Shown here: positions 46,763-54,708 of the stretch, in pieces
Layout of the letters: every line of letters begins with the position of its first letter
How positions within the stretch are numbered: position 1 is the stretch's first letter
From: Sporobolomyces roseus
Lineage: Eukaryota; Basidiomycota; Microbotryomycetes; Sporidiobolales; Sporidiobolaceae
Direction of reading: 5' to 3'
DNA length: 64,000 bases
Assembly: GCA_016617785.1 (NCBI GenBank)
Contig: JADILM010000001.1
Location: 3,968,001 to 4,032,000, forward strand
Notes under the pieces: generated by a model
Seen by the model: the letters and a program-made list of their open reading frames with translations, nothing else
What the model was told of the DNA's origin: nothing
The model's database searches: none
Translations under genes and position numbers: made by a program

Positions 46763-49368
46763 ATGACACTTCCTCTGCTACCTCATGGAGACTTGACTGC
46801 GTTCTCCTTCTCCCCCTCCTCGCCACCTAGTACATCAGGATTCACTCGAGATCCTCGTTCCTTCCCTTTCCCTTCCTCTGCATCGCCACCACCTCCAGAT
46901 TTCCCTTCACATGTTTCTCCAGCTCTCCTCTCTCCTCACTCAGCCGCATCTACCGCTTCAATCGCTCAAAGCATCTCACAGAACCTAGGTCCACCGGGAA
47001 GTCCACTCAGACCAGATGATTCAACGATGAATGAAGCGGACCCTACCGGACGAAGAAATATCGGAGATACCCTCAATGTGAAACCTAATTCGGGAGGAGA
47101 TTCAGGGATGGATGTAGAGGATGAACTGAGAAGAGGACCACCTGCAGCGGATATTCCAGGTGGAGATTGTAAAAACGTTTGCATTCGACATGCGAGAATG
47201 GCTAATGGTTCCACGAATTTGATGCTGCAAAAGGTGAAACGTCTCTATCTATCTCTTATCCTTCGTAGACTGACATCGAATCGTTGTAGTCGATCGAAAA
47301 CCTCGCACCGAACGAACAACAAGCAGTCAACACGATTTGGTCCCTCTTCTCTTCCTCCCCTTCAAAACGCCGACTCCTCATCCTTCGCGGTCTCCTCACT
47401 ATCGCCTGTCCCTCTCAGCTTTCCTTCCTACAAGAAGCACTCGCCCTCGAGATGAGACTCGATCCAGTCGAACTCTTACCTCGAGAAGTTACCCTCAAAA
47501 TCTTCGGTTACCTCGATGCAATCTCTCTCGGACGAGCGGCACAGGTTTCCAGAGCATGGAAAGGAATGGCAGATGACGATCTATTGTGGAGAACGATGTG
47601 TGAACAGCACATTGAGAGGAAATGCGAGAAATGTGGTTGGGGTTTACCGTTGTTGGGAGAAAGGAGGAGGAAAGCGAGATTAGCGATGAATGCTTTGCCG
47701 GCGATGAAAGGTGGAGAACTAGGCGGATTCGGAAGGGACAAGGTTATGGAAGATGTCGCGAGTTCAGCCGCCGCCGCTCAACAGCAACACCAACTTCAAC
47801 ATCACCAAGCAGATCAAGATTTCTCGACCACTCCTCTTTCCGCTCTCTCTTCTTCCTCCACAATCGAAGGCGACTCTCATCGACACAAACGATCAAAGAC
47901 GACTTCTCCCGGCCCTTCTCGCACCGCCTCCCCTCGAAACGCTTCTCCTCGTCCCGTTTCTCGCGCTCTCCTCCCCACCACCGATTCTTCCTTACTTCCT
48001 CCCCTCACTCGACCCTGGAAGCACGTCTACTGCGAACGACTCGCCATCGAACGCAATTGGAGACGAGGCACCTGCGTCGCAACCGTTCTCTCTGGCCATA
48101 CCGATTCGATCACTTGCTTGCAAGTAGCTGAAGATCTACCTCATCCCGCTTTCCCAGTCCTCATGACGGGATCATGGGATCGAAGTGTTCGAATCTGGAA
48201 CCTCGAAACTGGAAAGGAGGTTGGAGTATTACGAGGTCACACTCGAGGAGTTCGAGCACTCCAATTCGACGCTACGAAACTCGTTACGGGTAGTATGGAT
48301 TCGACTCTCAAAATCTGGAATTGGAGGACTGGAGAATGTATGAGAACTTTGAGGGGACATCGAGATGCAGTCATTTGTTTGACTTATGACAAGCAGTTAC
48401 TCGTCAGTGGGAGTGGAGATTCGACGATCAGGGTATGGGATTTCGGAACGGGAGAAGTGTACACTCTTAGGGGACACAGTGAATGGGTCAATTCGGTCGC
48501 TCTATGGGGTTCGAAATCGGATGGATGCGATCCTTCGCCCAACTCGACTGGAGAAGTAGGAGCCCCAACAAGTAATCCGGAACTCGCGAAACAATCGAAC
48601 ATGGGCAAATACCTCTTCTCAGCTTCGGACGATGCGACTGTTCGAGTTTGGGACCTCTACACTAGAACTTGCGTTCGAGTCCTCAGTGGTCACGTCGCAC
48701 AAGTTCAATCTCTCAAGGTTTACGTCGTACCCGCCAACGAAACTCAAAAAGATCAATCTTCATTCCCTTCGAATCTCTTACAACCTCCCGCCAACACTCC
48801 CAACAGAGAAGATGGTCCTCTCGCTTCAGGTGGTCCTTCCTGCTCAACGAATCGCCTACCCGTCGGAATCATCTCTCTCGCTCCTCCAGCTTCGACGAAT
48901 CCTCAACCCGATTTCGAGTTCAGCGGTGACAGGAAACCTTTTGTCGTGTCAGCTTCCCTCGATAATACGATCAGAGTGTGGGATGTAGAGAAGGCTCAAT
49001 GTATGAGAACTGGATTCGGTCATCTCGAGGGAGTTTGGGATGTCGATGTAGACAAGTTGAGAATCGTTTCTGCTAGTCATGATCGAACTCTCAAAGTGAG
49101 TCTCACTTCTTGTACGGGATCGGTGAGGCCATGCTCACTGACATTGCCTCGTTCTTCTCGATAGATCTGGGATCGAGATACAGGTCGTTGTCTTCACACT
49201 CTCATCGGTCACAAATCTGCAGTGTATGTCTTTCCACTTTGCTCCATCTCTCCTCGATACTGATTCGCTCTGTTCGATAGTACCTCTGCCCTTCTCACCG
49301 ATCAGCAAATCGTCAGCGGTTCCGACGACGGCGAAATCCGAGTCTGGTCCTTCGCACCCACTTCCTGA
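46763..49368 (+). CDS. MET30: Met30/SconB-type F-box WD40 protein
   Basis: Substrate receptor of an SCF ubiquitin ligase that in fungi controls sulfur-assimilation genes. The N-terminal domain carries the Met30-specific CIRHARMANG block and, after an intron, ENLAPNEQQAVNTIWSLFSS and LLILRGLLTIACPSQLSFLQ. An F-box follows (LLPREVTLKIFGYLDAISLG), then a Gln/His/Ser linker, WKHVYCERLAIERNWRRGTC and a seven-bladed WD40 propeller: SGHTDSITCL, GHTRGVRALQF, GHRDAVICL, GHSEWVNSV, GHVAQVQSL, GHLEGVWDVDV and GHKSA repeats, with VRIWNLE/LKIWNWR-type WD ends. Two blades hold long inserts. The last small exons end RVWSFAPTS at 49368. Sulfur control is inferred from the family, not seen here. Confidence 0.92.
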
Positions 49369-49734
49369 TCCCCCTTTCCCGTCTCTCACTTCCTTTCCCT
49401 TCCTTGATCGTTTCCTTCCTTCCCCTCACGACACTTTGCAATACTCTACTCGGACACTACTCGTCATCATCATCGTCGATTTACTACTGTTGCTTCCAAT
49501 TCTTGTTTAATATCATTCCTCTCTCTTTTTCGTTCCGAATTCGCTCACCATTCTCGTCGAGTAGAGATTCGTTCTTCTCTCAGTTGAATTCATGCCTCGA
49601 AGCTTCAACTCGTCACACGCTCTTGCCGCGGAAACTCCGTCAACGCTAAATCCTCCTCAATTCTCCCTCGTTTGGATTCGGTTTTTCTTCTTTCCTTCTT
49701 CCCCCTCACTTCACCCGCCCTGCCTCAAATCACG
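49369..49734. other. Intergenic, no gene seen
   Basis: Pyrimidine-rich spacer between MET30 and the first tandem paralogue; promoter and leader only. Confidence 0.55.
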
Positions 49735-50677
49735 ATGGCCATACCAGCCCTTGTACTCCCGAAGGGAACGCATGACAGCATAGACGAAGCCCATTGGCAG
49801 CTACTCACTCTCGTCTATCCGATGAGCCACTACAACGTCTACAAGGACGTCAAGGGCGAAGTGAAAAGTTACTTCAGGTGCTGCGCAAAGGGTGCATCGA
49901 CAGAACTAGGCGAAGTTAAGAACTGTCCCTTTTCCGTTGTCGGCAGTCGACCGGACGTCAACTCACGTTGGACGTTGACGATCAAACGAGGCAAGCACAA
50001 CCATGAAAAAGGACAGAAGCGGGAGCCTCCGAAAGACACGCACCTGTGGGAGGTGCTGCAAGCTCTTCGTCAGTTCCTCTACCTATCTACTCAGTGTGGA
50101 AAACTGAATAATGTGGAGACTCCGGTTCTGCAGGGCGAGAGGACTCCGCCGCAGAGAGCGACGACTCTGCTGGTCAGACACCACCAGCTCCACTGTCCCG
50201 AGAGGATCGTCTACGCGTGAGTCGTTCGCTGTACAAAGTCAAGATCTCGGACTTCGCTTACATCTCCTATTACAGCGTCGACATCCCAGCCACTTTGAGG
50301 ACAATCTGGACGAGGACGCAAGGGAGCGTCGAGCCCCGCGGTCCCCTGGGCCTGAAGTCGAGGAGGAATTCGAAGAGGAAATGAAACCGCCAGTCGACGA
50401 CGAACCAAACATTCTCGTCCTCTCCGAGAGTGACGACGACGACAGGACCGACTCCCTCATTACCTTCCTCGACTCTCTTTCATCCACCTTCAAGCTTTCG
50501 AAACTTGTCGACGTTTTTCGCGCGCCAGAAATCGGAGTCGAAACGAAGGAACAGCTTCTCGAAGTCGCTAGAATGGATTTAGGAGTGCTGATGGATGCTT
50601 TGAAGCCAAAGATAGGACTGGGACCGATTCAAGTGTTGAGGAAAGGGTTGAAAGAAGCGATAGAGAGAGAATTTTGA
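49735..50677 (+). CDS. FAR1/WRKY-GCM1-like zinc-motif protein, tandem paralogue A
   Basis: Three exons (49735-50068, 50134-50216, 50276-50677) sum to exactly 272 codons plus stop. The N-terminal domain (about residues 40-95) has RCC, then CPFSV, RWTLT and KHNHEKG. This Cys-Cys-CPF-W-HxH order is typical of FAR1/Mutator-transposase-derived and Aft1-like WRKY-GCM1 zinc domains (compare GCPF...W...EHNH). The middle is acidic and disordered with NILVLSESDDDD, a SUMO-interaction-like motif (50406-50441). The C-terminal 75 residues (LITFLDSLSSTFKLSKLVDV, QLLEVARMDL, GPIQVLRKGLKEAIEREF) match the end of the next gene and look like a small helical, SAM-like bundle. Start context (cacgATGg) is good. 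A DNA-binding or SUMO-linked nuclear role is inference. Confidence 0.72.
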
Positions 50678-50933
50678 TGTGGAGTATGGGAAAGAACGGA
50701 ATGGGGAGGAGGGACTGAGGGAGAAAGACCGCTTGTACTGACCTTGGTGTATAGCAACTCTAGTCAAGTGATTGTTGATGATGAGAGATGAGTGCGAGCT
50801 CGTCTATCCAGATAAAGCTTTGTATCTCGAGCATTCCTCGACCTAGGTTTTTGTTTTTCTTCCGACACAACAACATTCCATCCTCTCTTCATCACCCTCG
50901 TCACTCTCATCTACTCCAACGACTCCTGGAGAA

Positions 50934-52135
50934 ATGTACGACTTCCCTTCCCTCCCGTCTCCAACCGAACAATTCAAAGACCTCCGCAAGCTTTACGATC
51001 GATTACTTCTCTCCGTCTTCCCCATCTCTGCTTACACTCTCGATCGCACCCACGACCCGATCTTGACTTGCAACTTTCATTGTGCTCGAGGACTTCAGCG
51101 TCACGTCGGATTCGGAGCGTGCCCATTCGTAGTCAAGGCCGAACGAGCGAGCTTGAAAACCCCTTGGACTGTCGTTAGTCCTCTTGAATACGATCATGAT
51201 CATGAACCTATCCCACTTTCACGTCCTAGGAGAGGTACGGCGCTCGCTGAGGCACTCGAAAAGTTTGGAGTGGGCGACGAGTTTTGGATGAACGGTAAGT
51301 TCGAAAGGTTCATTTCGAGCGTGAAACTTGTCTCGAGGGTTATTGATGCAGTCTCGTGTCCTCAATAGGAGACAACGGAGGAAAGGATGACGAAGATGGT
51401 GAGAAGGAGGAGAAGCCAATGGGATCTGACGAGGAGGGAGATGAGGATCAATTGGGACAGGCAGATTTCGGTTCTACTCCTCCAGTACAGGTTCGTCGCG
51501 AATCTCACTGGATGCCAATCAAGATACTTGACTGCTAAGCTACTCACGCACACCTTGATCAGGAGCAACCTCTCTCTCCCGATGGATTGCGCTATCAGAA
51601 ACGACAGAAACTCAAGTTGAGTGGACGAGCACGAGAACGATCGTCGAGCAGGGGTCTGGAAGTGATAGATCTGACTGGAGAGGACGACGAAGAAGAAGAT
51701 GAGGAATACGAAGCGGGATCAGAAGCAAACGAAGTAGAGTCAAACGTCGACGAGGCAGAGCAGGAGAAGGAGCAGGAACTGGGCCAAGCAGATGACAGCG
51801 GTGTTTTCGTTGGCTCAGACGTCGAAGAGGATGTCAAGTCGATCAATGAAGCGGAGGAAGAGGAACAAGAACAACGCGACGGTTCTGAAGAAGCTGTTCC
51901 CTCGCAGTACGCCCAATTCAAGCAGTATCTTGATACGCTGGACCCAGAATTCCGGTTGGGTTGGTGTGTCGATACATTGTGGGATCGACCATTCTTGATC
52001 AGGAGTGAGAGGCAATTGTTGATGGTCGCGAGGAAGGATTTGAAAGGATTAATGGAGCTGTTTACGAAGGAGACGGCGTTCGGGCCAGCTTGCGCTCTGA
52101 GACAGGGACTTGAAGATGCACTGGATCGAGAGTAG
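50934..52135 (+). CDS. FAR1/WRKY-GCM1-like zinc-motif protein, tandem paralogue B
   Basis: Three exons (50934-51294, 51369-51490, 51563-52135) encode 351 residues. It repeats the plan of the gene 256 bases upstream: LTCNFHC, then GACPFVV, PWTVV and DHDHEP form the zinc domain (about residues 42-90); an acidic linker contains VIDLTGEDDEEED (51660-51698), a textbook SUMO-interaction motif; and the C-terminus (QYLDTLDPEFRLGWCVDTLW, QLLMVARKDLKGLM, FGPACALRQGLEDALDRE) aligns with paralogue A. The linker is much longer and richer in Glu than in A. The two genes clearly arose by tandem duplication but have diverged widely. No transposase catalytic domain is present, so these are stand-alone proteins. 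Function unknown. Confidence 0.75.
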
Positions 52136-52369
52136 GAGGGAGGGAGGGAGCGGGGAAGGAAGGTCGAGGGAGGTTGAGGGGAAGTAAGGTTGTAGACTAG
52201 CGAGGGAAGGTTTGTAGAGTTGTTGGAATCGTTTGCCGACGTCTGTAGTAGCTTCAGATGGATCTAGTTGTTGTCTGGAGCTACTCTGTAAGATCGAGAG
52301 TTGTGGTAGGAAGCAAAGAGCGAACGAGAAAGGAATCGCTTTTTGACCCCCACCAACTACTCTTCAACT

Positions 52370-54708
<2,339 letters not shown>

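Follow-up and report, generated by a model that had tools for sequence, protein, structure and literature searches.

The 64,000-nucleotide stretch analysed here (the window; positions 3,968,001 to 4,032,000 of contig JADILM010000001.1) contains two adjacent forward-strand genes, here called A and B, that lie at 49735..52135. Both encode proteins with an apparent N-terminal zinc domain of WRKY-GCM1 type and a predicted C-terminal helical domain joined by linkers. A and B are homologous in both domains, with matches beyond chance in the N-terminal part (E 3e-8) and the C-terminal part (E 2e-11), as an earlier note on this DNA had claimed. We describe the pair, its relation to a larger family on another contig, and the role that the two proteins may have.

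The gene models are drawn from sequence, that is, from reading frame, GT..AG introns and homologous proteins. Each gene has three exons and a single open frame, found where the earlier note had placed two neighbouring genes; the introns (65, 59, 74 and 72 nt) are all GT..AG, and the proteins comprise 272 (A) and 351 (B) amino acids. Exon 1 of gene A (49735..50068) carries the zinc domain (approximate limits 49762..50019), exon 2 (50134..50216) is a linker entered at the sole acceptor of two tried that keeps the frame open, and exon 3 (50276..50677, stop included) encodes an acidic linker and the C-terminal helical domain (50453..50674; 38% identity to B over 69 amino acids). In gene B, the zinc domain (approximate limits 50958..51212) lies in exon 1 (50934..51294), followed by an acidic linker in open frame in exon 2 (51369..51490) and by a basic and acidic linker and the C-terminal helical domain (51896..52132) in exon 3 (51563..52135, stop included). 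The Sporobolomyces roseus protein P0001 is 52% identical to B over its full length (100% query coverage), and because it aligns with B end to end, it supports the start and both exon joins of this gene. The start of A is backed by two proteins, P0003 and P0006, both opening with MAIPALVLPK; outside protein support for A covers this start, and its joins are predicted.

The genome searched comprises 22.4 Mb in 15 contigs, with A and B on the one called C1. Searched against all of it, the zinc domain of A listed only A and B (B at E 5.9e-4) and the tail of B only B and A (A at E 2.3e-7). Among about 5.8 billion proteins, two relatives of B and one of A were found at E up to 10, and a profile from five sequences, scored against the 7,997 candidates with the most shared words, led to six protein relatives. 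Neither the search with A nor that with this profile brought up an A-type protein of a named genome. In a tree of 25 zinc-domain rows, a branch (support 92/95, not starred) separates the six A/B-type rows from the others, and these six divide into A-type (97/98) and B-type (80/71) sets. Because each set holds rows from outside this genome, the duplication of A and B may predate the split from S. roseus, with the caveat that the B-type branch is weakly supported.

Zinc domain and C-terminal helical domain

WRKY-GCM1 zinc domains link plant, animal and yeast regulators with transposons. Their ligand pattern, two cysteines with HxH or HxC, is present in B as C50, C63, H88 and H90, columns that align with Aft2; the candidates in A are C50 (or C49), C64, H88 and H90. 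Across the six zinc-domain sequences compared, C50, C63, W78, T79, H88 and H90 (B numbering) do not vary, which corroborates the key residues of the motif C..C..CPF.V..WT[LV]..H.H proposed previously. The predicted fold comes closest to that of the yeast Aft2 DNA-binding domain (4LMG), the top match in sequence and, among the candidates proposed by Foldseek, in structure. Pfam searches with A and B gave no match above cut-off, with AFT, FAR1, MULE, SWIM and SAM all unmatched, and none was obtained with NCBIfam for six zinc-domain sequences. The AFT profile matched two of six sequences, the best being P0006 (E 0.0029; 18.3 bits, below the cut-off of 21.6), and the FAR1 profile matched seven of the ten scanned, seven of these ten being from contig C6 (best E 4.4e-7). 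The assignment to the FAR1/Aft1/WRKY-GCM1 group made in the earlier note is partly supported, by ligand pattern and nearest predicted fold, but A and B themselves match neither the FAR1 nor the AFT profile.

The C-terminal domain is predicted to form a compact bundle of helices that spans about 75 residues and closes with a long helix. Its motifs, QLL..A..DL and GP..LR.GL...RE, are shared by A, B and P0001 (which reads QML), in line with what had been seen before. Five models of the B tail had average predicted local distance difference test (pLDDT) values of 93, 87, 64, 63 and 61, the best with four helices. The SAM_EPH profile matched three of nine tail sequences (best E 0.0028) and six other families matched one each; in the three C6 proteins checked, SAM_EPH scored under its cut-off. 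The tail has no significant sequence or fold match to a family, and its modelled similarity to the SAM type is weak. As to the proposed SAM-like nature of the tail, a compact helical bundle with weak structural likeness is predicted, and A and B had no SAM profile match.

The linkers contain an ILVLS core before ESDDDD in A (50411..50425, forward strand) and a VIDLT core within EVIDLTGED in B (51662..51676, forward strand), both of which we take to resemble SUMO-interacting motifs. EVIDLTGED is common to B and P0001, and P0004 has MIDLTGEN; P0002 has no such VIDLT-type core.

A larger family on contig C6

Contig C6 comprises 1,676,062 bases, or 7.5% of the assembly. Seven of the eight FAR1 profile matches in the genome lie on C6 at 190-233 kb (two above cut-off), with one weak match on C2, and the AFT profile had one match above cut-off on C6 and a weak one on C4. 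When three C6 proteins were used as queries (E up to 10), 18 of 20, 4 of 5 and 10 of 11 matches fell on C6, own locus included, as did 13 of 14 for another zinc-domain query and all 16 for a tail query. Pairing by strand and order gave 19 loci in which a helical domain follows the zinc domain, two with a zinc domain only and five with a tail only; these counts are lower bounds and leave out, for example, matches at 55-58 and 242-244 kb. The pairing used unspliced matches, some of which contain stops, and some loci may be pseudogenes.

Kinship of A and B with this family through the zinc domain is well supported by profiles, because one built from 20 C6 zinc domains alone ranked B (27.5 bits) and A (19.4 bits) first and second of 1,373 non-C6 frames, which came from the window plus a few loci of C2 and C4 (2,000 shuffles reached 7.3 at best), and because hhalign related the zinc domains at P 5e-9 (probability 96%). 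For the tails, compared by hhalign at P 8e-4 (25%), kinship is possible. Two sets of results tell against membership of the pair in this family. With the C6 tail profile, A came first but scored only 10.7 bits, against 8.7 for the best shuffle, B was unlisted, and none of the P0001, P0002 and P0004 tails scored above zero. Searches with single sequences of the pair or of C6 were also mostly negative: none of five C6 queries against the genome listed A, only one listed B (as its eleventh match, E 0.034), and neither the A zinc domain nor the B tail listed a C6 locus. The pair had been put forward as founding a possibly undescribed family; A and B rather look like remote members of a larger, apparently unnamed family, whose other members found in this genome sit almost entirely on one stretch of C6. 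Literature searches listed no report of this family, and the main text of a comparative study of Sporidiobolales (PMC12093110) uses none of the terms 'transcription factor', 'zinc finger', 'DNA-binding' and 'WRKY'.

The ratio of nonsynonymous to synonymous substitution rates (Ka/Ks) of seven C6 duplicate pairs ranged from 0.31 to 0.81, the latter based on seven differences, which is in keeping with coding genes. One inverted pair had a Ks of 0.04 for the zinc domain against 0.49 for the tail, and another had 0.01 against 0.17. These values, drawn from few sites, suggest exchange between copies. Within the region at 388-418 kb, opposite-strand copies at 393.1-393.7 and 417.6-418.2 kb share 97% protein identity, suggesting a recent inverted duplication. 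In genes of the cluster at 190-233 kb, an upstream exon shows a C..C..HSC pattern (independent E value 0.34 or worse), perhaps a second, HxC-type zinc domain of the same protein. A link of the C6 cluster with the mating type was considered and is unsupported, with three STE3-type pheromone receptor matches on another contig (C11:266514-267497; homeodomain genes were not searched for).

A 2015 Pfam count (PMC4469406, Table 3) assigned no FAR1 domain to S. roseus, R. glutinis or M. lychnidis-dioicae, in contrast with the 19 zinc-then-helical loci in the genome analysed here, which, judging from P0001, seems related to S. roseus. Since that count is zero and only two exons exceed the FAR1 cut-off here, surveys by profile may overlook such proteins. 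A two-domain family so large and so confined would offer a tractable case for the growth of a DNA-binding gene family.

Proposed role and alternatives

We favour, with moderate confidence, the view that A and B are paralogous nuclear regulators that combine a DNA-binding zinc domain with an oligomerising tail and are distant members of the family concentrated on C6. What follows on DNA binding, on the choice of partners and on targets is inferred. The zinc domain would bind specific DNA through its beta sheet, like Aft2, and the SAM-like tail would form homo- or hetero-oligomers, perhaps of A with B, so that paired domains could recognise sites that are likewise paired. Co-regulators would be recruited by the acidic linker, which in B holds a candidate SUMO-interacting motif. 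Tandem and inverted duplications, together with exchange between copies, would have enlarged the C6 family within a single chromosome; A and B would be an older pair on C1, apart from the cluster.

Alternatively, A and B could be domesticated fragments of Mutator-like transposons that kept the FAR1-type end and lost the transposase core, as proposed for plant FRFs, although we consider this unlikely. The FAR1 profile matches described above are compatible with such an origin, and the plant FRFs, described as truncated FRS, carry a FAR1 domain only (PMC6000157) and, like A and B, no transposase. The relatives on C6 align with the C-terminal half of the profile of the plant FAR1/FRS and FRF proteins (PF03101), two of them above cut-off, but A and B exceed no FAR1 threshold, have no MULE core or SWIM match and carry a SAM-like tail instead. 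The lack of a transposase core, already remarked on in the earlier note, was borne out for MULE: no such core was matched in A or B, and PF10551, the only transposase family searched for, had no match anywhere in the genome at E up to 10. Among four inverted repeat pairs at 49300-52600, one flanks both genes (49414-49428 and 52175-52189; 15 nt, 93% complementary), but it is short, has one pyrimidine-rich arm and was assessed without a chance control. The nearest fold is moreover that of Aft2, which to our knowledge is not known as a transposase; an ancient transposon origin would leave no trace.

SAM, BAF and helix-hairpin-helix domains belong to a common fold class. The tail could accordingly be a helix-hairpin-helix or BAF-like DNA-binding module, which would make A and B two-handed architectural DNA binders and not SAM-type oligomerising regulators; we hold this to be rather improbable. 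In VIA comparisons of the B tail with 30 chains, BAF (6.1), a SAM-containing chain (5.5) and a DNA-ligase domain (5.2) were all tied, and Foldseek gave no match to the B tail model below E 5.9, the fold comparisons covering Foldseek's own candidates. The tail resembles these folds in its bundle size and long last helix, with weak structural similarity but no significant match.

That A and B are iron-responsive activators, a basidiomycete version of Aft1/Aft2 (PF08731), seems quite improbable. They share with Aft1/Aft2 the C-x(n)-C-P-F-...-W-...-H-x-H zinc domain as well as the best fold and PDB match, and the sub-threshold AFT match of P0006 also points this way, but they have a C-terminal helical domain and no Pfam AFT match. 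The CDC motif is the iron-sulfur sensing motif of Aft regulators. Neither CDC nor CxC occurs in A, B or P0001-P0006, and the adjacent genes, an F-box/WD and, by reading, an apparent SRP54 gene, include no iron genes. In a paper on Pichia Aft1, which names Cys291 and Cys293, a GATA factor is said to control iron uptake in most fungi (PMC4161868). One C6 gene (C6:243589-244257) reaches 23.1 bits against the Pfam AFT cut-off of 21.6 and is a better candidate than A or B for a true Aft-type protein.

A broader possibility, to which we give little credence, is an undescribed two-domain family (WRKY-GCM1 zinc domain and SAM-like oligomerising tail) of at least about 20 genes over about 0.5 Mb of one chromosome in a Sporobolomyces-like yeast. 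It would evolve by duplication and exchange and might recognise mobile DNA or rival alleles and silence them, while A and B would be its stable members outside the cluster. KRAB zinc-finger clusters are a clustered DNA-binding gene family, and C6 resembles them in its many paralogous genes of DNA-binding type on one contig and its near-identical duplicates; the domains are unrelated, and a silencing role in C6 would be by analogy only.

Upstream of gene A, at 47290-49370 of the window, lies an F-box/WD-repeat gene. It had been named MET30; the F-box/WD-repeat class holds, but MET30 is not separable from other F-box/WD proteins. Downstream of gene B, at about 52370-54650 of the window, is a putative gene for an SRP54-like GTPase, as named in the earlier note.
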